From an uncultured Acidimicrobiales bacterium (GTDB lineage: Bacteria; Actinomycetota; Acidimicrobiia; Acidimicrobiales; SZUA-35), in contig CALAJQ010000012.1 of NCBI GenBank assembly GCA_937922785.1, positions 62,001 through 126,000 of the forward strand: a stretch of DNA of 64,000 bases, read 5' to 3'. Of the stretch, positions 970 through 16,693 are shown one piece after another; positions within the stretch are counted from its first letter, which is position 1, and every line of letters starts with the position of its first letter. The notes under the pieces were generated by a model that saw nothing but the letters and a program-made list of their open reading frames with translations, did no database searches and was not told the origin of the DNA. A program made the translations under genes and the position numbers.

Positions 970-990
970 AGACGCTCTGCTCCCACCTTC

Positions 991-1080
991 GAACTGACCT
1001 GGCTACCAGTCAAAAAATCCGAACCGACCTGGCTACCAGCCGGGTTTGACTGGGTACACCGCCAGTACGGAAATCGTGAC
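991..1080 (+). repeat. Intergenic 30-bp-period repeat with hairpins, locus 1
   Basis: Two copies of GAACYGACCTGGCTACCAG begin at 991 and 1021 (period 30). They are followed by a tail CCGGGTTTGACTGGGTACAC that runs into CGCCAG. The same units and tail recur at 13860-14003. CTGGCTACCAG is itself a short inverted repeat (CTGG/CCAG), and in the other locus the tail contains CTGGC/GCCAG, so the RNA would form small hairpins. It lies between two convergent genes. The family is not one I recognise. Confidence 0.75.
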
Positions 1081-1117
1081 TGTTTCCCAGGTCAGAACGG
1101 TGGATTCGATCGCACGG

Positions 1118-7374: not shown

Positions 7375-10290
7375 ATGGCTGAGATTCGATGCGGAAATTG
7401 TGGTGAGCTTCACGGGAGTATTGCCGAGGTAAAGACTTGCCACATTGAACGGCCGGTCGCGCAAGCACCAGGATCGGTATCGCTGGCCAACTCAGAACCC
7501 GTAACGGGGGCGGCGCCTCAACCAAAGAAGTCTGTGGACGCGTCTCCAGCAAGACAACCCAGCCGCACCAGCGTCGAACCAGGCTTGAACGTGATCCCGT
7601 CAACTGTTGCGGAGGGGAGCGTTCTGCTTAACCCGGGACCTGACTCTTTGGGTCGAACGTTGGTCATCGCTCCTGGTGACAAGATCCCTGAAGCCTGGAG
7701 GAAGTGTGACATCTTCGAAGTTGATGCCGAGATTCTCGAAGACCCCGAAATCACAGCGGATGAACTTTCCGAGCTCTGGTTCAAACGAGAGCGCTACATC
7801 ATTGAGCTGTCGGTAGAACTGCCACTTGGTGAGACTGACCAATCCGAAGTGTGGGAGCTTGAGCCAGGCTTCACGTTTCACAAAGACCGCCTCTTGCATT
7901 TCGTTTTCTCCAACGCTGTTCGACTTGTGTCATCGGCCGGAGCAGTTGGGTTGGCTTCTGCGTTGGGTGATCGAGCCGTAGCTTTGGGAGCAACGGTTGG
8001 CGGCTCGGCCGATGTGGTGTTGCCTAATGGCACCGAAGCTTGGCTTGACGGCGGCCCGATTGATCCGTTGGTCACTTCGGAGCCTGTCGTCCACGCGGTG
8101 TCGCTTGACGCTGGCGTGCTTCGCTCTCTCGGCAAGGCCGATCCCGATGCCGACCTGGCGCCAGATCAACTGGCCGCTGTTTCCCACCGCTCGGGAGCCG
8201 CCAGAATTATTGCGCCAGCTGGATCGGGCAAGACTCGGGTCCTGACCGAACGCGCACGGCACCTGGTCAAGAACTGGGGAATTCCCACCAACGCTTTGAC
8301 CCTTGTTGCCTTTAACAAGCGGGCTCAAGTGGAAATGTCAGAGCGCACGCAGGATCTTCGTGGGTTACGTGTGCGCACGCTCAACTCGCTTGCTTTGCAG
8401 ATCGTTAATGATCACCACCAAGTCTCAACGGTTTCCGAGCGTGACATTCGGCGACTGATCTCAAACCTGGTTCAGTTCCCACGCAAGGCCAACGCAGATC
8501 CTGTTGCGTCTTGGTTCGAAGCGCTCACAGCAGTCCGGCTTGGCTTGCGAGATCCCGAGGAAGTTGAAGGCTCTTTCCACGGAGACGTAGACACCTTTTC
8601 AGACGTGTTCGATCAGTTTCGAAGCAAGCTCGAACGCTCAAACTCAGTGGATTTTGACGAACAGATATATCTAGCAATCGAGATCCTTCTCCGAGATCCC
8701 CGGGCAAGGAGCAAAGCTCAATTGGGGTGTTCGATGTTGCTAGTGGACGAGTTCCAAGACCTCACTCCGGCTCATCTACTGCTAATTCGTCTGTTGGCCG
8801 GGCCTCGAGCCGACGTGTTCGGTGTCGGTGATGATGACCAGACCATCTATGGCTTTACTGGTGCGAATCCTCGCTGGCTGATTGACTATGAACAGTTCTT
8901 CCCGGGTTCAAAACCACATGCGTTGGAAGTGAACTATCGCTGCGCACCGGGTGTTGTGACCGCTGCAGCCAACCTGCTGGAATACAACACCGAACGTGTC
9001 CACAAGACCATCCGGCCCGCACCCGGTCGTCGGGCCGACAAGGGTGACCTGGTCTTAGTGAAGACTCCTGACGGCCCGGCTGAGCTGGTCAAACAGGTGC
9101 GGGAACTCATCGCCAACGGTGCGAAACCGGCCGACATCGTCGTGCTTTCGCGGGTGAACGTGACCCTGGCAGTGCCCCAAATAGCACTAGCCCATGCGGG
9201 ACTTCCGGTAACGGGTGCGGTCGGACCCTCGTTGTTAGATCGCACTGGGGTTAGAGCGGCGTTGGCTTGGATGCGAGTGGCGACCAGTGGGAAGCGATTG
9301 ACCGCTCACGACATCTCAGAATCTGGTCGCAGACCCTCACGAGGCTTAAGTCCACGGGTATTGGAGTGGATGGGAGAAAACAATGACCTCGCAGGAATCA
9401 CCCAGTTGGCGGGTCGCCTGAAAGACAAAGACGCCGCCAAAATCAAGGACTGGATCTCCGATGTTCGCCGGCTTCGACAAATGGTCGATGACGGGCTTAG
9501 TAGCGCAGACCTGCTCGTCGAGATTCAAGATTCGGTTGGCTTGGCCACCGCCATGGGGACACTTGATGCCAGTCGTGGAAACGCCGATCGGTCTACTCAT
9601 ATCGATGATCTAACGGCGCTGGTCTCCCTGGCCGCTCTCGAGCCTGACGCAAAGTCGTTTGTGCCGTGGTTGCGAGACGCGCTTGATCAGCCTCGTCCGA
9701 ACGAAGGCGAAGGCGTGTTTTTGTCGACCGTGCATCGGGTGAAGGGCCAAGAGTGGCCGCACGTTTTTGTCTACGGGGTAGACCAGGGCACGTTCCCTCA
9801 TCGACTGGCGGAAAGGTCTGAGGAGCGACGGGTCTTTCACGTGGCAATAACCAGATCATCTACTCGGACCACCGTCCTTGCTGACCCTGGCCGACCATCG
9901 CAGTTCCTAGGCGAGCTAACCGGAGAGAGATCTAAGGCTGCAACTGAGCGGTTCACTGAGCAGCCAAAGGACCGTTCAAAGAAGCCAGCCCGCAAACCAG
10001 CTAAGAGCGAGAACCGAAGCAGAGCTGGCGGCCGAGGCGGCTCACGCAAAGTTGAAATCAACCTCACAGCTGAAGAGCATCTCCGCTTCGATGCACTCAA
10101 AAAGTGGCGACTCGAAGTCTCCAAGTATTCAAAAATTCCCGCCTACAGGGTCTTCGGCGACAGCGTCCTTGCCACCTTGGCTAAGGACAATCCGATCAAC
10201 CTCACCCAGCTGTCGCTGGTCAAAGGTGTCGGCCCGGCCAAACTTGAGAACTACGGCGACGAAGTTTTGTCGGTCTTAACTGGCGGCTGA
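7375..10290 (+). CDS. UvrD/Rep-type ATP-dependent DNA helicase with HRDC end and unique N-terminal part
   Basis: Superfamily 1A helicase of 971 residues. Residues 5-23 hold a possible zinc site (C6, C9, C22, H23). Residues 30-260 match nothing I recognise. The motor follows: Walker A APAGSGKT (280-287), Walker B LLVDEFQD (about 453-461), GDDDQTIYGF (about 483-492), the NYRC motif, STVHRVKGQEWPHV, and RRVFHVAITRS. After a Lys/Arg-rich linker, residues about 895-971 form an HRDC domain (LVKGVGPAKLENYGDEVL). Mycobacterial UvrD2 also combines a Cys motif and HRDC, but there the Cys motif sits after the motor. A repair role is likely; the N-terminal function is unknown. Confidence 0.9.
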   Translation: MAEIRCGNCGELHGSIAEVKTCHIERPVAQAPGSVSLANSEPVTGAAPQPKKSVDASPARQPSRTSVEPGLNVIPSTVAEGSVLLNPGPDSLGRTLVIAPGDKIPEAWRKCDIFEVDAEILEDPEITADELSELWFKRERYIIELSVELPLGETDQSEVWELEPGFTFHKDRLLHFVFSNAVRLVSSAGAVGLASALGDRAVALGATVGGSADVVLPNGTEAWLDGGPIDPLVTSEPVVHAVSLDAGVLRSLGKADPDADLAPDQLAAVSHRSGAARIIAPAGSGKTRVLTERARHLVKNWGIPTNALTLVAFNKRAQVEMSERTQDLRGLRVRTLNSLALQIVNDHHQVSTVSERDIRRLISNLVQFPRKANADPVASWFEALTAVRLGLRDPEEVEGSFHGDVDTFSDVFDQFRSKLERSNSVDFDEQIYLAIEILLRDPRARSKAQLGCSMLLVDEFQDLTPAHLLLIRLLAGPRADVFGVGDDDQTIYGFTGANPRWLIDYEQFFPGSKPHALEVNYRCAPGVVTAAANLLEYNTERVHKTIRPAPGRRADKGDLVLVKTPDGPAELVKQVRELIANGAKPADIVVLSRVNVTLAVPQIALAHAGLPVTGAVGPSLLDRTGVRAALAWMRVATSGKRLTAHDISESGRRPSRGLSPRVLEWMGENNDLAGITQLAGRLKDKDAAKIKDWISDVRRLRQMVDDGLSSADLLVEIQDSVGLATAMGTLDASRGNADRSTHIDDLTALVSLAALEPDAKSFVPWLRDALDQPRPNEGEGVFLSTVHRVKGQEWPHVFVYGVDQGTFPHRLAERSEERRVFHVAITRSSTRTTVLADPGRPSQFLGELTGERSKAATERFTEQPKDRSKKPARKPAKSENRSRAGGRGGSRKVEINLTAEEHLRFDALKKWRLEVSKYSKIPAYRVFGDSVLATLAKDNPINLTQLSLVKGVGPAKLENYGDEVLSVLTGG

Positions 10291-10320
10291 ACCAGACGGT
10301 CTGACCTGTAGCTTGGGCCG

Positions 10321-11247
10321 ATGGTTAAGAGCACGCACGCATCGGTGGCCGACGAGCGAAACGCTTCGGTCGAGATTTACATAAACGGCGAATTCTTCCC
10401 CCGTGATGAGGCCAAGGTCTCGGTCTTTGACGCAGGGTTCTTGGTTGGCGACGGCATCTGGGAAGGGATCCGCCTTCACCACGGCGAGTTTCCCTTTCTA
10501 GAACGTCATATGCAACGATTATTCGCTAGCGCTACAGCGGTATCGATCGATATTGGCATGAATGCTGCAGAGATTGAGCAAGCGTTGCGGGCCACGGTTG
10601 ACCGGAACGCGATGGACGATCATGTGCATTTGCGTCTGATGGTTACCCGTGGTCCGAAGAAGACCCCAAGCCAGCACCCCTCCAATTCGATAGGTGGGCC
10701 GACGATGGTGATAATTGCCGAGCACAAGAAGGCTGATCCAGCGGTACTACACGAAGGCATCTCGCTCTTTACCGCCACGGTTCGCCGACCGGCTCCTGAC
10801 ACGCTTGACCAGAAGCTCAACTGCCACTCGAAGTTGCACGAAGTGATCGCACTGATTCAGGCCACCAATGCTGGAGCGGACGAAGCTCTCATGCTTGATC
10901 CGACTGGAGCAGTTGCAACCTGTAACGCAACCAACTTCTTTGTTATCAACAACGGTGAGTTGTGGACTTCTACCGGTCAGTACAACTTGATGGGAATAAC
11001 CCGGGCCGTCGTTTTGGAAGAGGCCGAAGCGGCTGGCATCAAAACTCACGAGAAACCGTTCTCTCTCACCGATGTGTACGCCGCCGACGAGGCCTTTGTT
11101 ACCGGCACGTTCGGAGCGCTTACTCCGGTGCACACAATCGACGGCCGCACGATCGGCACTGCAATTCCGGGTTCGGGAACGTCGCAATTGTCCGAGCTTT
11201 ACCGTGCGGCGATCGAAAGGGATGTGGCCGCCAAGAAGGCGTCGTGA
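10321..11247 (+). CDS. Class IV aminotransferase (branched-chain / D-amino-acid transaminase fold)
   Basis: PLP enzyme of 308 residues with the class IV fold: VEIYINGEFFPRDEAKVSVF at the N-terminus, DGIWEGIRL, the candidate PLP lysine K165 in DQKLNCHSK, GADEALMLD, and EAFVTGTFGALTPV near the end. It could be a branched-chain aminotransferase, D-amino-acid transaminase or aminodeoxychorismate lyase; the sequence alone does not decide. Its TGA overlaps the GTG start of the sulfotransferase-like gene (GTGA), so translation is coupled. The start was kept at ATG 10321, though a later start close to VEIYINGE would also keep the fold. Confidence 0.88.
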   Translation: MVKSTHASVADERNASVEIYINGEFFPRDEAKVSVFDAGFLVGDGIWEGIRLHHGEFPFLERHMQRLFASATAVSIDIGMNAAEIEQALRATVDRNAMDDHVHLRLMVTRGPKKTPSQHPSNSIGGPTMVIIAEHKKADPAVLHEGISLFTATVRRPAPDTLDQKLNCHSKLHEVIALIQATNAGADEALMLDPTGAVATCNATNFFVINNGELWTSTGQYNLMGITRAVVLEEAEAAGIKTHEKPFSLTDVYAADEAFVTGTFGALTPVHTIDGRTIGTAIPGSGTSQLSELYRAAIERDVAAKKAS

Positions 11248-11981
11248 ACGCCTCGGTGGCTGGAACTAAGCGAATTCAGATGTGGAGCGGTCCTCGCAAC
11301 ATCTCGACCACGTTGATGTACTCATTCAGACAGCGACCTGACACGACTGTTCAAGACGAGCCGCTTTATGGGTACTACCTGCGCCATACCGGCCGACGGC
11401 ACCCCGGAGACGACGAAGTGATGGCATCGCAGAACACCGACGGAACCGCGGTCATCGCTGAGATGTTGGCCTTTGATGAGACCCCAGTTGTGTTCTTCAA
11501 ACAGATGGCAAAACATCTGGTTGGCCTGGACTGGACGTTCTTGGACTACTGCGACAACGTCATCTTGTGTCGGCATCCCCATGACATGTTGACCTCGTTA
11601 CAAAACCAGTTGCCTGATGCCACGGTGGCTGACACCGGCCTGGTTGAACAAGTCGAACTAGTGGATGCGGTTGTTGCCAAGGGGCAGACCCCCATCGTGC
11701 TGGAGGCCGCCACGGTTCTAGAGAACCCCGAAGGAGTGCTTCGCGAACTTTGTGATCGACTAGGTCTTGAGTTCATCGACGCCATGTTGAGCTGGCCCGC
11801 AGGCTCCAAGCCAGAAGACGGAATATGGGCAAAACACTGGTACTCAAGCGTTCAGACCTCCACTGGATTCCGGCCATACGTGGCCAAGACCGCCCAGCTG
11901 ATTCCACAAGTGAAGCCGCAGCTAGAGCCGTCAATGGCGTTGTTTGACCAGCTAAAGCCGTACGTAGTTACCGGGCGTTAG
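11244..11981 (+). CDS. Sulfotransferase-family protein
   Basis: P-loop sulfotransferase-like protein of 245 residues. The N-terminal segment MWSGPRNISTTLMYSFRQRP corresponds to the 5'-phosphosulfate-binding loop of PAPS-dependent sulfotransferases. DNVILCRHPHDMLTSLQNQL matches the 3'-phosphate binding region (R and S). GTG 11244 was chosen because it overlaps the aminotransferase stop by 4 nt and begins just before the P-loop. The last 4 bases overlap the stop of the convergent patatin gene. The coupled aminotransferase suggests that both act on one amino-acid-derived metabolite; the substrate is not known. Confidence 0.82.
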   Translation: MNASVAGTKRIQMWSGPRNISTTLMYSFRQRPDTTVQDEPLYGYYLRHTGRRHPGDDEVMASQNTDGTAVIAEMLAFDETPVVFFKQMAKHLVGLDWTFLDYCDNVILCRHPHDMLTSLQNQLPDATVADTGLVEQVELVDAVVAKGQTPIVLEAATVLENPEGVLRELCDRLGLEFIDAMLSWPAGSKPEDGIWAKHWYSSVQTSTGFRPYVAKTAQLIPQVKPQLEPSMALFDQLKPYVVTGR

Positions 11982-12946
11982 CTCTCGGAGAGCAAAGCCA
12001 GGTACGGCCATGAGTCGGCGGATTCAAACATTGCCTTGGAGGAACGATGCGTGGCGTTCAGAATGCGTGAGGTGCGATCGACGTCCATCATGGTCGGACC
12101 CATCGCCCGGGCAACAGAGTTCGACGGTTCAAACAGCAAGACTTGATGCCCAGCCGCTTCTAGCTGTTTGACTTCGGCCGCCACTTTGCGTTTCCAGAAC
12201 ACTCGAAGGGGGCCGTTGATGCGCCGCACGCCTGAACCGTATGAGTGAAGCGACATCGGGGCAATCATGATCACTAGATCGAGTTCTCTGTCCAACAGCA
12301 GGTCGCCGTTGGTAGGGGAGTGAACTCCGCCGTCGATGTAGACGACGCCGTTGATCTCCACTGGTGTGAAGAAGCCGGGAATCGCCGAGCTGGCTTCAAC
12401 TGCGTCTATTAGGTCTGAGCCTTGAGAACCGTCGAAGGCGGTCCGGGCACCGTCGTCCATCCGGATTGCAGTGATGATTAGCTCTTTGTCAGGCCATTCA
12501 GTTATGTAGGGGCGTACTTCGTCGCCAACACGGTCGGTTGAGACTGGGCCAGCTGGAGCTACTGCGGAGATCAAGCGTCCGGGCCTGGCGCGTCGACCGC
12601 GGCCCAGTTCGGATCTAACTAGCGATCTTGCGGTGGTGGAATCGGGCAAGGCGGCAAAGGCGCCACGGTCACCCGTTATGTCTTTTAGTCTTTGCCGGGT
12701 GTCGGGATTGTTCTTCAGCGAGGACAACTCGGCGTACGAGTCCTCAATGCTGCGGCCGCCGCGCAAGAAAGCACCGGCGTTTGCGCCAGCTGAGGTTCCG
12801 ACGATGACCTCAGCTGTTCGTGGGTCCCAACCGGTTGTGTCTTCCAACGCCTTAAGGGTTGCGATCGTGTATGCAAAACCCGCCAGGCCCCCGCCACCTA
12901 AAACAAGCCCGACCTTTGGTGCCATCTGGCCCGCCGCCTTGGTCAC
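11978..12946 (-). CDS. Patatin-like phospholipase
   Basis: Lipid acyl hydrolase of 322 residues with a Ser-Asp dyad. The oxyanion loop is GLVLGGGGLAGFAY, the nucleophile serine lies in VGTSAGAN (GxSxG), and the aspartate lies in YIDGGVHSP (DGG). GTG 12946 overlaps the XRE gene stop (GTGA); ATG 12925 (MAPKVGL) is a credible shorter start. It has no clear signal peptide, so it probably acts in the cytoplasm or at the inner membrane face. It is the last gene of an operon with an HBHA-like protein and an XRE regulator, which suggests work on stored or membrane lipid. Confidence 0.9.
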   Translation of the reverse strand: MTKAAGQMAPKVGLVLGGGGLAGFAYTIATLKALEDTTGWDPRTAEVIVGTSAGANAGAFLRGGRSIEDSYAELSSLKNNPDTRQRLKDITGDRGAFAALPDSTTARSLVRSELGRGRRARPGRLISAVAPAGPVSTDRVGDEVRPYITEWPDKELIITAIRMDDGARTAFDGSQGSDLIDAVEASSAIPGFFTPVEINGVVYIDGGVHSPTNGDLLLDRELDLVIMIAPMSLHSYGSGVRRINGPLRVFWKRKVAAEVKQLEAAGHQVLLFEPSNSVARAMGPTMMDVDRTSRILNATHRSSKAMFESADSWPYLALLSES

Positions 12947-13299
12947 TTAGTCTCGTTGCTGGAAACGAATCCCTTGTAGATCTCAAGCATTGCTGACTTC
13001 TGGGAGTTGGTGAGATTCGAATCGTTTCTGATGGCTGCTTCGGTCTCGGGTTCTTCTTCGATCTCTAGGCCCAACCATCCGGCCTGTTTCATTAGAACTT
13101 CAGCCGGCAGGTTTAGTGCTGCGCTAAGCGCCTTTACGACTCGAACCGACGGTTCGTGCAAGCCTCGTTCCAACTGGCTTACATAGGGGTCTGAAAGCTT
13201 CGCCAGCTTGGCGAGCTCTCGCTGGGAGAGCTCAGCCAAGCGGCGTTGCGAGCGAATGAATGCACCAAGTCCTTTTAGGTCTTCAGCGTTTTCGCTCAT
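12943..13299 (-). CDS. XRE-family HTH regulator (Rv0474-like)
   Basis: Small cytoplasmic DNA-binding protein of 118 residues. Residues 12-66 form a Cro/C1-type HTH (LGAFIRSQRRLAELSQRELA, SDPYVSQLERGLHEPSVRVV, ALNLPAEVLMKQAG). The closest match I can recall is the XRE protein encoded beside hbhA in mycobacteria (Rv0474). The tail after residue 80 is acidic and unassigned. It lies 45 bp downstream of the HBHA-like gene, with an 8-bp inverted repeat in that gap, and overlaps the patatin gene by 4 nt. It probably controls its own operon. Confidence 0.9.
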   Translation of the reverse strand: MSENAEDLKGLGAFIRSQRRLAELSQRELAKLAKLSDPYVSQLERGLHEPSVRVVKALSAALNLPAEVLMKQAGWLGLEIEEEPETEAAIRNDSNLTNSQKSAMLEIYKGFVSSNETK

Positions 13300-13316
13300 T
13301 TGGGGATACCGGGTTT

Positions 13317-13340
13317 TCTACTTGCGAATGTACAAGTAGA
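13317..13340. promoter_or_regulatory. Inverted repeat between HBHA-like and XRE genes
   Basis: Arms TCTACTTG (13317-13324) and CAAGTAGA (13333-13340) are perfect 8-bp inverted repeats with an 8-bp spacer. The site begins 4 bp after the HBHA-like stop and lies 18 bp before the XRE start. The sequence after it on the coding strand is not T-rich, so it is more likely an operator for the XRE protein or an mRNA processing hairpin than a terminator. Confidence 0.5.
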
Positions 13341-13344
13341 GACT

Positions 13345-13665
13345 TTACTTCTTGGCTGCTGGCTTGCGCTTGGCGGCGGCCTTGCGAGCTGGAGCCTTCT
13401 TGGCTGCTGGCTTAGTAGCTGGCTTGCGAGCAGGAGTCTTCTTTGCTGGCGCTACTGGAGCTACTTCCTCAGCAGGCATGAAGCGGCCTAGAACCTTGTC
13501 AGCAACTGCACGGTTGGCAGAGATGCCAGCGGTCAGAAGGTTGAAGGTGGCGTCCATTGCGGTGCGGCTGTATGCGTGCACTCGGTCGGTGTTCTTCTCA
13601 GCAGCATCGAACATGTTGTCGAGCATCTGGTCAGAGGTCTTGGCGATTTTTTCGATGACTGGCAT
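13345..13665 (-). CDS. HBHA/phasin-like protein with Lys-Ala-Pro tail
   Basis: Protein of 106 residues. The first 65 residues are predicted amphipathic helix (MPVIEKIAKTSDQMLDNMF, then AMDATFNLLTAGISANRAVA). Residues about 75-106 are a basic AAKK/PARK repeat tail like that of mycobacterial heparin-binding haemagglutinin and the lipid-droplet protein MLDS. ATG 13665 was chosen: AAAGGA lies 7 nt upstream and an upstream extension has no homologous look. Such proteins bind lipid surfaces, DNA or sulfated glycans through the tail. The neighbouring XRE regulator matches the mycobacterial hbhA context, and the downstream patatin points to lipid. Histone-like function is the alternative. Confidence 0.75.
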   Translation of the reverse strand: MPVIEKIAKTSDQMLDNMFDAAEKNTDRVHAYSRTAMDATFNLLTAGISANRAVADKVLGRFMPAEEVAPVAPAKKTPARKPATKPAAKKAPARKAAAKRKPAAKK

Positions 13666-13769
13666 TTGATTGTCCTTTTTAGACACAACGTGTGTGAGCA
13701 CTTCGTGGGTGGGGAATGAACACTGGGTTTCGTTCACCGGGTGTTCACTAGCGAGGAGTTCTTCGCTAC

Positions 13770-13820
13770 TGCGTACTTTAGTGCGCACACCTAAGGATGT
13801 CTATCAATTTGCGTACTTTA
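13770..13820. promoter_or_regulatory. Paired 11-bp direct repeats upstream of HBHA-like gene
   Basis: TGCGTACTTTA occurs at 13770-13780 and again at 13810-13820, exactly 40 bp apart, upstream of the HBHA-like gene. The first copy is followed by GTGCGCA, giving an imperfect dyad. Two copies spaced near four helical turns are typical of activator or repressor sites. The regulator may be the XRE protein of the same operon; this is inference. Confidence 0.4.
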
Positions 13821-13859
13821 CTTAGCGACTTCCGTCACAGTAGCCCGGCCATCGTCACC

Positions 13860-14003
13860 GAACCGACCTGGCTACCAGTCACCAATTCCGAACCGACCTG
13901 GCTACCAGCCACCAATTCCGAACCGACCTGGGAACCAGCCGGGTTTGACTGGCTACACCGCCAGAACGGGAGAGAGTGACTGGCTACACCGCCAGAACGG
14001 GAG
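13860..14003 (+). repeat. Intergenic 30-bp-period repeat with hairpins, locus 2
   Basis: Three units of GAACCGACCTGGCTACCAG (13860, 13890, 13920; the last reads CTGGGAACCAG) are separated by 11-bp spacers YCACCAATTCC. They are followed by the tail CCGGGTTTGACTGGCTACAC and CGCCAGAACGGGA, whose second half is duplicated with a 31-bp period (13948 and 13979). CTGGCTACCAG and CTGGC-TACACC-GCCAG each fold into small hairpins. It is the second copy of the element at 991-1080. It lies between the 3' end of rpiB and the HBHA promoter region. Confidence 0.8.
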
Positions 14004-14006
14004 GTT

Positions 14007-14450
14007 TTAGTTGTCTTGTTCGAGGGCCATTACCTGATCGACGCGACGCTGGTGGCGGCCACCTTCGAACTCGGTATTGAGGAACAGGTCAACTATCTCG
14101 AGCGCTACGCCCATGCCGACAACGCGGGCCCCCATCGACAAGACGTTTGCGTCGTTGTGTTCGCGAGCCATCCGGGCGGTGTACAAACAGTTGCACAACG
14201 CGGCGCGAGCTCCCTTGACCTTGTTGGCAGCTAGCTGCTCACCTTGGCCCGATCCGCCGAGCACAATGCCTCGGTCCGCTTCGCCATTTACCACCGCACG
14301 CGCCGCAGCTGCGCAAAAGGCCGGGTAGTCGACTGATTCTGTTGAATCGGTTCCCTTGTCGATTACCTGATGACCTTGCTCGGTCAGGACAGAAATGAGT
14401 TCTTGTTTGAGTTCATAGCCGGCATGATCGGCTCCGATGGCGACGCGCAT
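14007..14450 (-). CDS. rpiB: Ribose-5-phosphate isomerase B
   Basis: Interconverts ribose 5-phosphate and ribulose 5-phosphate in the pentose phosphate pathway. The 147-residue RpiB/LacAB-type chain shows IGADHAGYELKQEL at the N-terminus, GGSGQGEQLAANKVKGARAA for the phosphate and anion-hole loops, the conserved MAREHNDANVLSMGARV, and the C-terminal FEGGRHQRRVDQV. It is a normal full-length member. The lipoprotein gene at 14466 ends 15 bp upstream on the same strand, so the two may share a transcript. Confidence 0.96.
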   Translation of the reverse strand: MRVAIGADHAGYELKQELISVLTEQGHQVIDKGTDSTESVDYPAFCAAAARAVVNGEADRGIVLGGSGQGEQLAANKVKGARAALCNCLYTARMAREHNDANVLSMGARVVGMGVALEIVDLFLNTEFEGGRHQRRVDQVMALEQDN

Positions 14451-14465
14451 GGAGCGACCCTACCG

Positions 14466-15488
14466 TTAACAGGCCCAGTAGGTGCCGTCGGGATCTACCG
14501 GTGTCGGGCTGGCGGTGCTGGCCGCGTGGTATGTGTTGTCGAACCGCACACCCAGGAGCTCTTCCCCGCCCACGTCAGTCCCATACCGGTGCATGTATAG
14601 ATGTGTTCCGTCGCCCTCAATGGTGCAAACAAGCCGTTGACTGAGTTCGGGCGTGTCGAGTTGCACAAAACTGAACGGTCCGTCGGTGTCGAGCCCACCA
14701 ATCAGAGGTAGCTCGCAAAGCCGGTAGGAGAACATGTAGACCTGCTCGTTGCTGGAGTCAGCAAGAATCACATCCCCGCCCTGTCCCGCTGGTTTGACCG
14801 CACGGATCTTGGTTAGGTCGGTCGGGTAGCCGAAGAAGAAGTCCGTATCGGCCTCCACATAGGCGGTTTCGATATAGCCCCCGTCGCCCAGCTCGGCTGC
14901 AACTGTGAGTTCACCGTCTCGGATGAATGTGTAGACGGTATCGAGCCGACCGTCTCCGTCGATTTCGGCCTCGATGACGTTCAGGTCAGAGACCGATTGG
15001 CTATTGAATCCGCCGCCTGGGCAGATCGAATTGCCTTGAGGTTTGACATAGGACGAGGCCACCCAACCCTCGCCCGATGTCAGTTTCCACCAGGCTGTTT
15101 TGCCGACTAGGGCACAATCGCTGGTGAAGAATATGTCTCGCGCCCCGGCCAAAAATTCGCCGACAATCTCGTTCTCCGTACCAGGGCCTGACCTGATGTT
15201 GAGCTGATCTGGTGTTCCGTAAACGGTGTAGGCGTTAGCCGTTGCTGCCGCCTTGCAAACAACCGTCGTGGAAGTTGAGGCTGGCTCGGAGGTGTCGGTA
15301 GTAGTTGAATTTTCGTAGCCCTGAAGGTCGGCGGTGCCGTCCACAAGAGTGGTGGTGGGAGCGTCGGTAAAGGGTATTGAGGTGGGAATCGTGCCTTCAG
15401 CCTGGGGCTGGGCTGAACAAGCAGCGGCTAAGAATGCAACGCTTAAGGTCACGCCCACGGCGGTGCTGAGCCTCTTCGATAAATTCAT
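14466..15488 (-). CDS. Lipoprotein with bacterial SH3-like domain
   Basis: Exported lipoprotein of about 340 residues. It has a signal peptide with lipobox LAAAC near residue 24, a Thr/Ser-rich linker to about residue 80, then an SH3b-like module (LNIRSGPGTENEIVGEFLAG to GEGWVASSYV). A C-terminal domain of unknown type (about 160-340) contains Asp-rich DGDGRLDTVY, reminiscent of integrin/VCBS-type repeats. The ATG at 15488 (MNLSKRL) was chosen over an ATG six codons upstream because it directly begins the positively charged signal region. SH3b domains often bind cell-wall peptides. No specific function can be assigned. Confidence 0.75.
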   Translation of the reverse strand: MNLSKRLSTAVGVTLSVAFLAAACSAQPQAEGTIPTSIPFTDAPTTTLVDGTADLQGYENSTTTDTSEPASTSTTVVCKAAATANAYTVYGTPDQLNIRSGPGTENEIVGEFLAGARDIFFTSDCALVGKTAWWKLTSGEGWVASSYVKPQGNSICPGGGFNSQSVSDLNVIEAEIDGDGRLDTVYTFIRDGELTVAAELGDGGYIETAYVEADTDFFFGYPTDLTKIRAVKPAGQGGDVILADSSNEQVYMFSYRLCELPLIGGLDTDGPFSFVQLDTPELSQRLVCTIEGDGTHLYMHRYGTDVGGEELLGVRFDNTYHAASTASPTPVDPDGTYWAC

Positions 15489-15593
15489 GTAGCGGGATGC
15501 ACCCATTTGGCACTATCGGCCCATCCGGGCCTTTCATTAGATCTACCTGGAACATTGGCTTAGGTCTGAGCTGTTCAGGGTCGATGCACTTGT

Positions 15594-15956
15594 ATGGAAA
15601 AGCGGCGACTCATCAAGGTAGTAAAGATCAGGCTTGCTGACGCAAAGGTTGGTGACGTCGTTAACCGAGACGCATCCTCTGATGAAGGCTGGTTCGAAGT
15701 GGCCTCGTTAGACACGCTGTTTAACGGGAGTCTTCAGGTGGCGGACGAAACCACCTACATCACCATTACTGGCGGTCACTTCGACACAATTGCTTTGCAG
15801 GTTGCGACCGAAGTCGACTTGCCAACTCAACGGCGCGCTCCGGAAGAGCCCGAGCATGCCCCTGAAGCCCAACCCCCGGTCGAGACCGAAGTTCCCGAGC
15901 CAGTCGCTCAGCCAGCTCAAGCGCCGCAACAGGCGCCACCGACACCTGTGTCCTAG
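15594..15956 (+). CDS. Small hypothetical protein with Pro/Glu-rich tail
   Basis: 120-residue soluble protein. Residues 1-77 look like a compact beta-rich domain ([17 protein letters not shown] and [14 protein letters not shown]). Residues 78-120 are a low-complexity Pro/Glu/Gln/Ala tail. I recognise no family. ATG 15594 is the only good start. Its last 4 bases overlap the stop of the convergent ppgK gene (CTAG). The compositional tail and lack of membrane segments leave function open. Confidence 0.6.
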
Positions 15957-16693
15957 GCAGAGGCAGCGTTTATCGCGGCACCAACAATTCCAGCCTTGTT
16001 CTTCATGTTGGCCGGCACTATCGGTGTGCGAATGTCGAGAAACTCCGAGAAGTGGTCCCACTCCTTTGAGACTCCGCCGCCAACCACTATCAGTTCCGGC
16101 CAGAAGAGGTCTTCCATCTCCCGTAGGTAGCGCTTCACTCGGGCTCCCCAAACCGGCCAGCTGAGCTCTTCTTCTTCGAGCGCCCGACTCGACGCAACCG
16201 ATTCTGCGGGAACTCCATCAATAATGAGGTGTCCGAATTCTGCGTTTGGTAACAGAACTCCGTCGGTAAAAAGGGCAGACCCGATACCGGTCCCGAGGGT
16301 GATCATTATCACCACCCCCTTTTGGTTGCGACCTGCGCCGTGCCGCATTTCGGCGATTCCAGCAGCATCAGCATCGTTGCAAACCTTGACCTCGCAGTCG
16401 AGAGCTTCAGAGAAGATGGTTTGGGCGTCTGCCCCGACCCAGCTTTTGTCCAGGTTCGCGGCCATTCCGACTACTCCCGAGCGAACGACTCCGGGGAAAG
16501 TGAAACCGACTGGCCCGTCCCACTTGAAGTGGTCTCGAATCTGCGCGCCCACGTCGGCGATTGCGTCTGGTGTGGAGGGGGACGGCGTTTTGATGCGGAA
16601 CTTCTTCTCCACCAACTTGCCGGCTTCCACATCGACAGGAGCGCCTTTGATTCCTGACCCGCCAATATCGATTCCGAGCACTATTTCAGACAT
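15953..16693 (-). CDS. ppgK: Polyphosphate glucokinase (ROK family)
   Basis: Phosphorylates glucose using inorganic polyphosphate and usually also ATP, feeding glycolysis. 246 residues, the usual PPGK length. Motifs: the phosphate loop [29 protein letters not shown], the catalytic Asp segment [34 protein letters not shown], and the C-terminal [12 protein letters not shown] 16693 begins at the first motif ([12 protein letters not shown]) and overlaps the lnt gene by 8 nt, so it is the last gene of the hemE-hemG-lnt-ppgK operon. Confidence 0.93.

Follow-up and report, generated by a model that had tools for sequence, protein, structure and literature searches.

How bacteria gauge the fat or polyester they have stored has been worked out in few models. 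MLDSR of Rhodococcus jostii RHA1 is an XRE-type regulator that binds two palindromic motifs upstream of its operon, one read as promoter and one as operator, activating at low level, repressing at high level, and being sequestered by lipid droplets (PMC5504291). In systems of the PhaP/PhaR type, the granule titrates the regulator, which binds the promoter of the phasin gene, and in Haloferax the phaRP genes share an operon whose promoter carries tandem repeats (PMC9049629). HBHA and TadA, of mycobacteria and Rhodococcus opacus, have a role in lipid inclusions (PMC6176652). This report concerns a three-gene operon on the minus strand of a 64,000-nucleotide stretch of an uncultured Acidimicrobiales bacterium (contig CALAJQ010000012.1; "the window" means this whole stretch), which encodes, in order, a phasin-like protein, an XRE-family regulator, and a patatin-like lipase. 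We consider it likely that this is a lipid-droplet operon autoregulated by its XRE protein at paired palindromes, with the inverted repeat between its first two genes serving as an mRNA hairpin. The sequence-only reading from which the analysis started had named the three genes and the GTGA overlap (12943-12946) of the XRE and patatin genes, and the open reading frame listing places all of them on the minus strand.

The MLDS/MLDSR locus resembles the window in that genes for a droplet protein (basic tail of PAKKA type) and for an XRE-HTH regulator share an operon, with two neighbouring palindromic sites upstream; in the text excerpted no lipase is mentioned, whereas the window operon includes a patatin, and the MLDSR box is given as GNT(T/A)GCTNNTGCTANC, two motifs within 43 bp, against an 18-bp TGCGnACTATAGTnCGCA-type palindrome occurring twice at 40 bp in the window (PMC5504291). 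No MLDSR box was recognized in the window, the best match being 8/12, a value reached by 45% of shuffles; at least 10/12 occurs in eight of 35 regions examined, seven of them orphan phasins, via a TGCTAAC-like half-site, and this shared half-site may hint at common descent only. To judge from the paper's wording, the regulator gene seemingly comes first in MLDS/MLDSR, whereas here the phasin gene does. The earlier likening to the mycobacterial hbhA gene order is loose, the window being phasin-first and the mycobacterial order the reverse. PhaP/PhaR is tied to polyhydroxyalkanoate (PHA), whereas the window-type phasin-XRE core is found at both triacylglycerol/wax-ester and PHA loci, and PhaR proteins are not known to be XRE proteins. 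By analogy, the window operon may well work like MLDS/MLDSR and PhaP/PhaR, membership of neither being claimed; as judged from the genes, it would differ from both in gene order, operator and phasin family, and in having an additional candidate droplet lipase. The operon is undescribed in the literature searched (open-licence PMC): the words patatin, XRE and HBHA are absent from the main text of a survey of wax-ester/triacylglycerol synthases (WS/DGAT) covering Acidimicrobiia (PMC10351704), and the available portion of PMC10699116 mentions neither patatin nor phasin.

Four things were established by computation, namely the gene order with its recurrence, the linkage to storage synthases, the operator together with the predicted promoter that it overlaps, and the catalytic motifs. 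Of 61 genomes from the family and order, 56 contain relatives of the XRE regulator, among them the bacterium's own (G000; 4.9 Mb, 45 contigs, 96% complete), in which the operon copy is the single match at E 0.001. Sixty-six XRE loci were fetched at E values up to 1.9e-17, weaker matches being left out: the window itself, 59 with wide flanks (shorter at contig ends), and six narrow ones (G029, G012:C246, G060:C37, G049:C117, G046, G037). Among the 59, two kinds are distinguished. In 21 the XRE gene follows a small helical phasin-like open reading frame, often with a Lys-rich tail, while 35 have no phasin-like neighbour and serve as controls; three were set aside (L078, at a contig break with the phasin end on another G001 contig; L097, phasin convergent; L132, phasin 5 kb off). 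A tree of the XRE proteins, made by a quick method and with many open forks, splits the two kinds almost cleanly, L096, on a long branch, falling on the control side (L068, labelled B in error, duplicates L093).

Of the 21 phasin-linked loci, 13 have a storage synthase no more than about 8 kb away (seven WS/DGAT and six the PHA synthase PhaC, the latter count excluding weak matches in L080 and L096 that may be other hydrolases) versus none of the 35 controls (Fisher 1e-7, kinship among loci uncorrected). The full order phasin-XRE-patatin on one strand, whose conservation the sequence-only reading had proposed to check, recurs in 12 other loci and is thus not unique to this strain: L075 (with a gap of 1065 bp before the patatin), L076, L077 and L079, together with seven Acidimicrobiales metagenome-assembled genomes (L150-L156) and one of Acidimicrobiaceae (L208), drawn from 80 named patatin loci. 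In 11 of the 12 (not L075) the next gene, read in the same direction, is a WS/DGAT, overlapping or within 40 bp; in the window, a sulfotransferase-like gene points toward the patatin where relatives have this fourth gene. XRE and patatin overlap by 4 bp in seven of the 12 and by 1 bp in L076, three frames being over-long and L075 having its gap. Because G000 has no PhaC match and two WS/DGAT matches, the bacterium itself probably stores triacylglycerol or wax ester. The earlier suggestion of an operon controlling storage-lipid droplets is supported by synthase linkage, recurring order, and the presence of WS/DGAT in a genome without a PhaC match. In L085 (G034:C340), where the order is phasin-XRE-PhaC, the XRE groups with support beside the patatin-linked L075, L077 and L208, a grouping that points to an exchangeable synthase behind a conserved core, L085 being a candidate swap.

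Evidence on regulation lies upstream of the operon. The 11-bp repeat TGCGTACTTTA stands, exactly as first reported, at 13770 and 13810, 40 bp start-to-start, and the two copies prove to be portions of two 18-bp palindromes, which had not been noticed before (Table 1). Palindromes of this type (TGCGnACTATAGTnCGCA; centre TATAcT/TATAgT) lie upstream of phasins. Scored with a matrix refined on 21 loci from other genomes, the window excluded, the window sites reach 19.6 (13770-13787) and 17.2 (13810-13827), the top two in 64 kb, the next being 14.4. Of the 20 scorable phasin-XRE loci (L094 has no upstream DNA), 17 reach a leave-one-out score of at least 16 ahead of the phasin, although these scores are not fully blind, because the seed consensus was set by eye after the window had been viewed. 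The best score in the 1 kb upstream of a control XRE gene is 8.0 (0/35 with a site), and the mean for shuffled sequences is 3.0-4.8, individual shuffles peaking at up to 17.9. Across the 61 genomes, the strict palindrome has four sites, all before phasins (three in loci that had served to build the pattern, the fourth, in G001, new), versus none for the reversed pattern. With one mismatch allowed there are 33 sites, 20 of them before phasins (15 in pattern-making loci or the window and five new: G001 twice, G009, G039, G058), versus 45 for the reversed pattern, which, having different dinucleotides, is an imperfect control. Nine further phasin loci came from protein search, five weak matches being left out (E 5e-5 to 7e-4; G008:C192, G027:C13, G036:C276, G048, G055), and four of the nine have a site of at least 17. 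In the bacterium's own genome, a loose pattern has four exact matches, two being the window pair and the others scoring 12.7 and 6.9; no genome-wide regulon was found in G000 by the loose pattern with one mismatch (25 sites versus 46 reversed).

The proximal palindrome coincides with a predicted promoter. A -35-like hexamer (at least 4/6 to TTGACA) lies 16-18 bp upstream of the palindrome centre in 16 of 28 proximal operators, versus 0-4 of 28 in each of six other offset classes, and an independent promoter scan also gives TAGACA-17-TAAAGT in the window. Since the operator covers the -10 hexamer, RNA polymerase would be expected to face competition from any protein occupying the site. As for the alternative targets first proposed for the XRE protein, the paired repeats are the likely operators, and the inverted repeat is not supported as one.

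Table 1. Features of the operon and its upstream region (window positions).
Feature	Position	Strand	Remarks
Patatin-like lipase gene	11978..12946	-	322 aa; GGGG oxyanion motif, GTSAG (Ser52), DGG (Asp205)
XRE-family regulator gene, phasin-linked clade (type A)	12943..13299	-	118 aa
Intercistronic mRNA hairpin (8-bp inverted repeat), proposed	13317..13340	-	without U-tract in operon direction
Phasin-like gene	13345..13665	-	106 aa; longest frame 13345-13788
Hairpin in predicted operon 5' leader	13717..13747	-	z -3.4
Proximal operator palindrome (putative)	13770..13787		TGCGCACTAAAGTACGCA on minus strand; over -10 box
Predicted sigma-A promoter TAGACA-17-TAAAGT	13775..13803	-	-10 hexamer 13780-13775 inside proximal operator
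Distal operator palindrome (putative)	13810..13827		CGCTAAGTAAAGTACGCA on minus strand; 40 bp upstream of proximal

Pairing of the operators goes with a same-strand patatin. All 13 loci with a same-strand patatin have a pair, spaced 39 bp in L075, L076, L077, L079, L156 and L208 and 40 bp in the window and L150-L155, versus none of the 15 remaining phasin-XRE loci that have an operator (Fisher 2.7e-8, the loci being related and kinship uncorrected). Mapped on to the XRE tree, the patatin label takes three changes to explain, and starred branches make two of these unavoidable, so that the association is not wholly one inheritance.

A number of findings weigh against the proposed circuit. The bacterium's own WS/DGATs lie outside the operon, both on another contig, with no site above 9.4 in the 19 kb surrounding the two genes, and 60 of 80 related patatins have no WS/DGAT within 500 bp. 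The window phasin is internally shortened relative to its nearest relatives. Three phasin-XRE loci (L092, L095, L096) fall below the operator threshold, 13 of the 33 one-mismatch sites lie away from phasins (five were read, the other eight being judged by a protein search that placed no phasin nearby), and among the nine further protein-found phasin loci two score about 12 and three have no site. The pair spacing of 39-40 bp is not a whole number of helical turns; other pairs are spaced 29 bp apart (L085, next to PhaC) and 48 bp apart (G001, whose XRE contig shows no patatin over 9.5 kb), and a divergent patatin is present in three of the 15 pairless loci (L080, L164, L167). Finally, operators precede phasins without an adjoining XRE in L243 (2677), L246 (2538), L247 (2448), L252, L253, L256 and L260, and G039 has such an operator-bearing orphan phasin yet no XRE match.

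From these XRE-less phasins it follows that another protein, perhaps the XRE paralogue linked to RsiG, may bind there. The operator might then belong to a different regulator, that paralogue or another protein, with the operon XRE responding to another cue. Among the loci without an XRE directly behind the phasin, seven of 12 scored have a site of at least 17, although it was the site that led to three of the seven (L243, L246, L247); six of the seven genomes concerned hold a control-type XRE as their only close relative (that of G046 being unplaced in the tree), and G039 holds none. Against this stand the single XRE of the family in the bacterium's own genome, which lies in the operon with the site pair, and the 35 control XRE loci, not one of which has the site upstream of its own gene. 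We regard a different regulator as unlikely, and autoregulation by the operon XRE (HTH_3 in Pfam, E 3.9e-13, 49.7 bits versus a cut-off of 23) as the better account.

The phasin-like protein probably starts at the ATG at 13665, which has AAGGA upstream. It is predicted to form one 61-residue helix followed by a disordered Lys/Arg-rich tail with 14 K+R in the last 40 residues, and AlphaFold places the helix at 2-62 with pLDDT about 70-80 and the tail at about 40. It is 36-42% identical to the phasins of L150, L151, L153, L154 and L155, which align with it at both ends and have a middle part that it lacks. The family of the linked loci exceeds the cut-off of no Pfam or NCBIfam model: the window protein has only sub-threshold Pfam matches (HC2 histone-like, 1.6e-4; Phasin_2, PF09361, 0.036, 14.7 bits versus a cut-off of 24.9), phasins beside PhaC (L085, L088, L089) likewise lack a Phasin_2 match, and a PDB profile search gave nothing below E 0.08. 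HBHA and TadA share the helical part and Lys-rich tail (PMC6176652). The likeness to HBHA that had first been drawn thus holds for architecture and is otherwise loose, given that no HBHA or MLDS family model in Pfam or NCBIfam is matched, the comparison being with models and not directly with HBHA or MLDS sequences. The window protein has 106 residues, and its family includes proteins beside PHA synthase. The tail carries PAKKT and PAAKKA variants and no exact PAKKA, which does occur in relatives such as L154. One of the bacterium's own WS/DGATs (L133:8681-10303, on G000:C4) also has a Lys-rich tail, of KKPAKKK type, resembling that of the phasin, and it adjoins the second WS/DGAT and an open reading frame that by eye resembles an acyl-CoA synthetase.

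Given such a tail, the small Lys-rich protein might be a histone H1-like DNA binder, the XRE a housekeeping regulator, and their neighbours coincidental. The best Pfam/NCBIfam matches are indeed to histone-like HC2 and H1-like models, confined to the tail and below cut-off. However, L080, L082, L085 and L087 have little basic tail (3-5 K+R in the last 40) and keep helix, operator and XRE, and the linkage to PhaC and WS/DGAT would be left unexplained. Moreover, a protein that coats droplets may bind DNA as well: PhaF of Pseudomonas putida couples a granule-binding part to a histone-like disordered tail, an arrangement that the window phasin would share, and MLDS and PhaF each bind both droplet or granule and DNA (PMC5504291, PMC9049629), so that nucleoid versus lipid is a false choice. 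PhaF itself shows no relation to the window protein by the models searched, and its regulator is of a different type. A purely nucleoid role is therefore improbable, and a droplet-coating phasin remains the preferred reading.

The third gene matches the patatin family securely (PF01734, E 2.2e-24, 87.2 bits versus a cut-off of 27.7). Residues G17, G19, G50, S52, G54, D205 and G206 are invariant across 35 sequences, and the structure model has a pLDDT of 91.7. Among solved structures, the closest in fold are PlpD and CBASS phospholipases, at 13-22% identity, and potato patatin. A patatin of CBASS-like fold beside an XRE protein might suggest a phage-defence module, the XRE acting as regulator or antitoxin to a phospholipase effector. 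The patatin resembles CapV/CapE by fold and weakly by sequence, PADLOC phospholipase effectors are partially matched (1.2e-7), and the XRE matches capH (2.7e-10). We rejected this reading as extremely unlikely: the CBASS lipase equivalog scores 25.5 of 200 bits, far below cut-off, no nucleotide cyclase was found among five neighbouring genes scanned, and the relatives' neighbours are storage synthases.

Most likely the window patatin is a droplet-associated acyl hydrolase, a candidate neutral-lipid lipase of the ATGL kind; ATGL/PNPLA2, taken as a functional model, has a similar Ser-Asp dyad and fold. It could instead be a phospholipase that remodels the droplet monolayer, or a polyester depolymerase, such as the patatin-like PHA depolymerase of Haloferax, and this we hold to be a real, if lesser, possibility, since the nearest solved relatives (PlpD, CapE, cPLA2) are phospholipases. 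Against these roles stand the lack of a PhaC match in the bacterium's own genome and the WS/DGAT that comes after close orthologues; within 500 bp, 20 of 80 related patatins from other genomes have one. G000 encodes further patatins, of which that at G000:C9:214392-215339 is very close to the window patatin family (E 1.4e-105).

The perfect 8-bp inverted repeat that had been reported between the first two genes is present (13317-13324/13333-13340). As RNA it forms a 9-bp stem of -11.1 kcal/mol (z -3.0), which is moderate beside its relatives when judged against 12 shuffles each (-11.1 versus -6.6 for shuffles, standard deviation 2.4). Sixteen relatives leave at least 50 bp between phasin and XRE; in 14 of them (L075, L077, L082, L085, L088, L089, L090, L093, L094, L095, L150, L152, L164, L208), a strong hairpin of other sequence occupies the same place (-29 to -38 kcal/mol); L079 and L080 lack one, and loci with shorter gaps show no hairpin clearly above shuffles. 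An operator role was rejected, the repeat having no operator-like score and the relatives' hairpins there differing in sequence, as was that of an intrinsic terminator of the operon, because the T-run lies on the opposite strand. The likeliest role is that the hairpin protects the phasin message or cuts read-through, so that coat would exceed regulator. Rfam gave no riboswitch or other known RNA match at E 0.1 within 10000-16000.

From this evidence we infer a circuit in which the XRE protein is the binder, droplets titrate it, the hairpin sets relative output, and the lipase acts on acyl lipids at the droplet. The phasin-like protein would coat the droplet, its helix on the surface and its Lys-rich tail touching DNA. 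The XRE protein would bind both 18-bp palindromes; at the proximal one it would cover the -10 box and block transcription, while the distal one, 40 bp upstream, would be an additional site, through which repression could be cooperative or transcription be activated. As triacylglycerol or wax-ester droplets form, the XRE protein would leave the DNA, probably for the droplet surface as with MLDSR or PhaR, and its withdrawal would allow coat, regulator and patatin to be made. The hairpin after the phasin gene would then yield much coat and little regulator, and the patatin would hydrolyse acyl lipids at the droplet.

In Acidimicrobiia more generally, one phasin-XRE core with its operator may serve triacylglycerol/wax ester or PHA, the synthase being swapped by lineage, with the RsiG-linked paralogue running orphan phasins; we put this forward tentatively, as a rather doubtful extension. 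Were one core to serve chemically different stores, the XRE protein would therefore sense the droplet surface itself and not its chemistry. The signature E-x3-S-x2-R-x3-Q-x3-D, that of RsiG anti-sigma factors (PMC8325347), occurs in the upstream frame of 27 of 35 control loci (L098-L131, L134) versus none of 23 (L075-L097), so cyclic di-GMP signalling is possibly tied to the same family of XRE regulators. If so, the RsiG-linked paralogue would, where the phasin-linked copy is absent, tie storage to a sigma switch controlled by cyclic di-GMP. The class includes the lipid hoarder Candidatus Microthrix (PMC10351704). A circuit with a defined 18-bp site is testable, the operator motif helps to locate phasin genes that Pfam and NCBIfam do not match, and the operon offers a concrete, if predicted, candidate for a bacterial droplet lipase.

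The stretch that separates rpiB from the operon holds, at 13846-14006, tandem repeats of 30 bp and 27 bp, which are members of a dispersed, REP-like family of G000 with 40 matches in the genome (64 candidates, 40 scored), 39 places being outside 13846-14006, for example C12:62990-63100 (window 990-1100).

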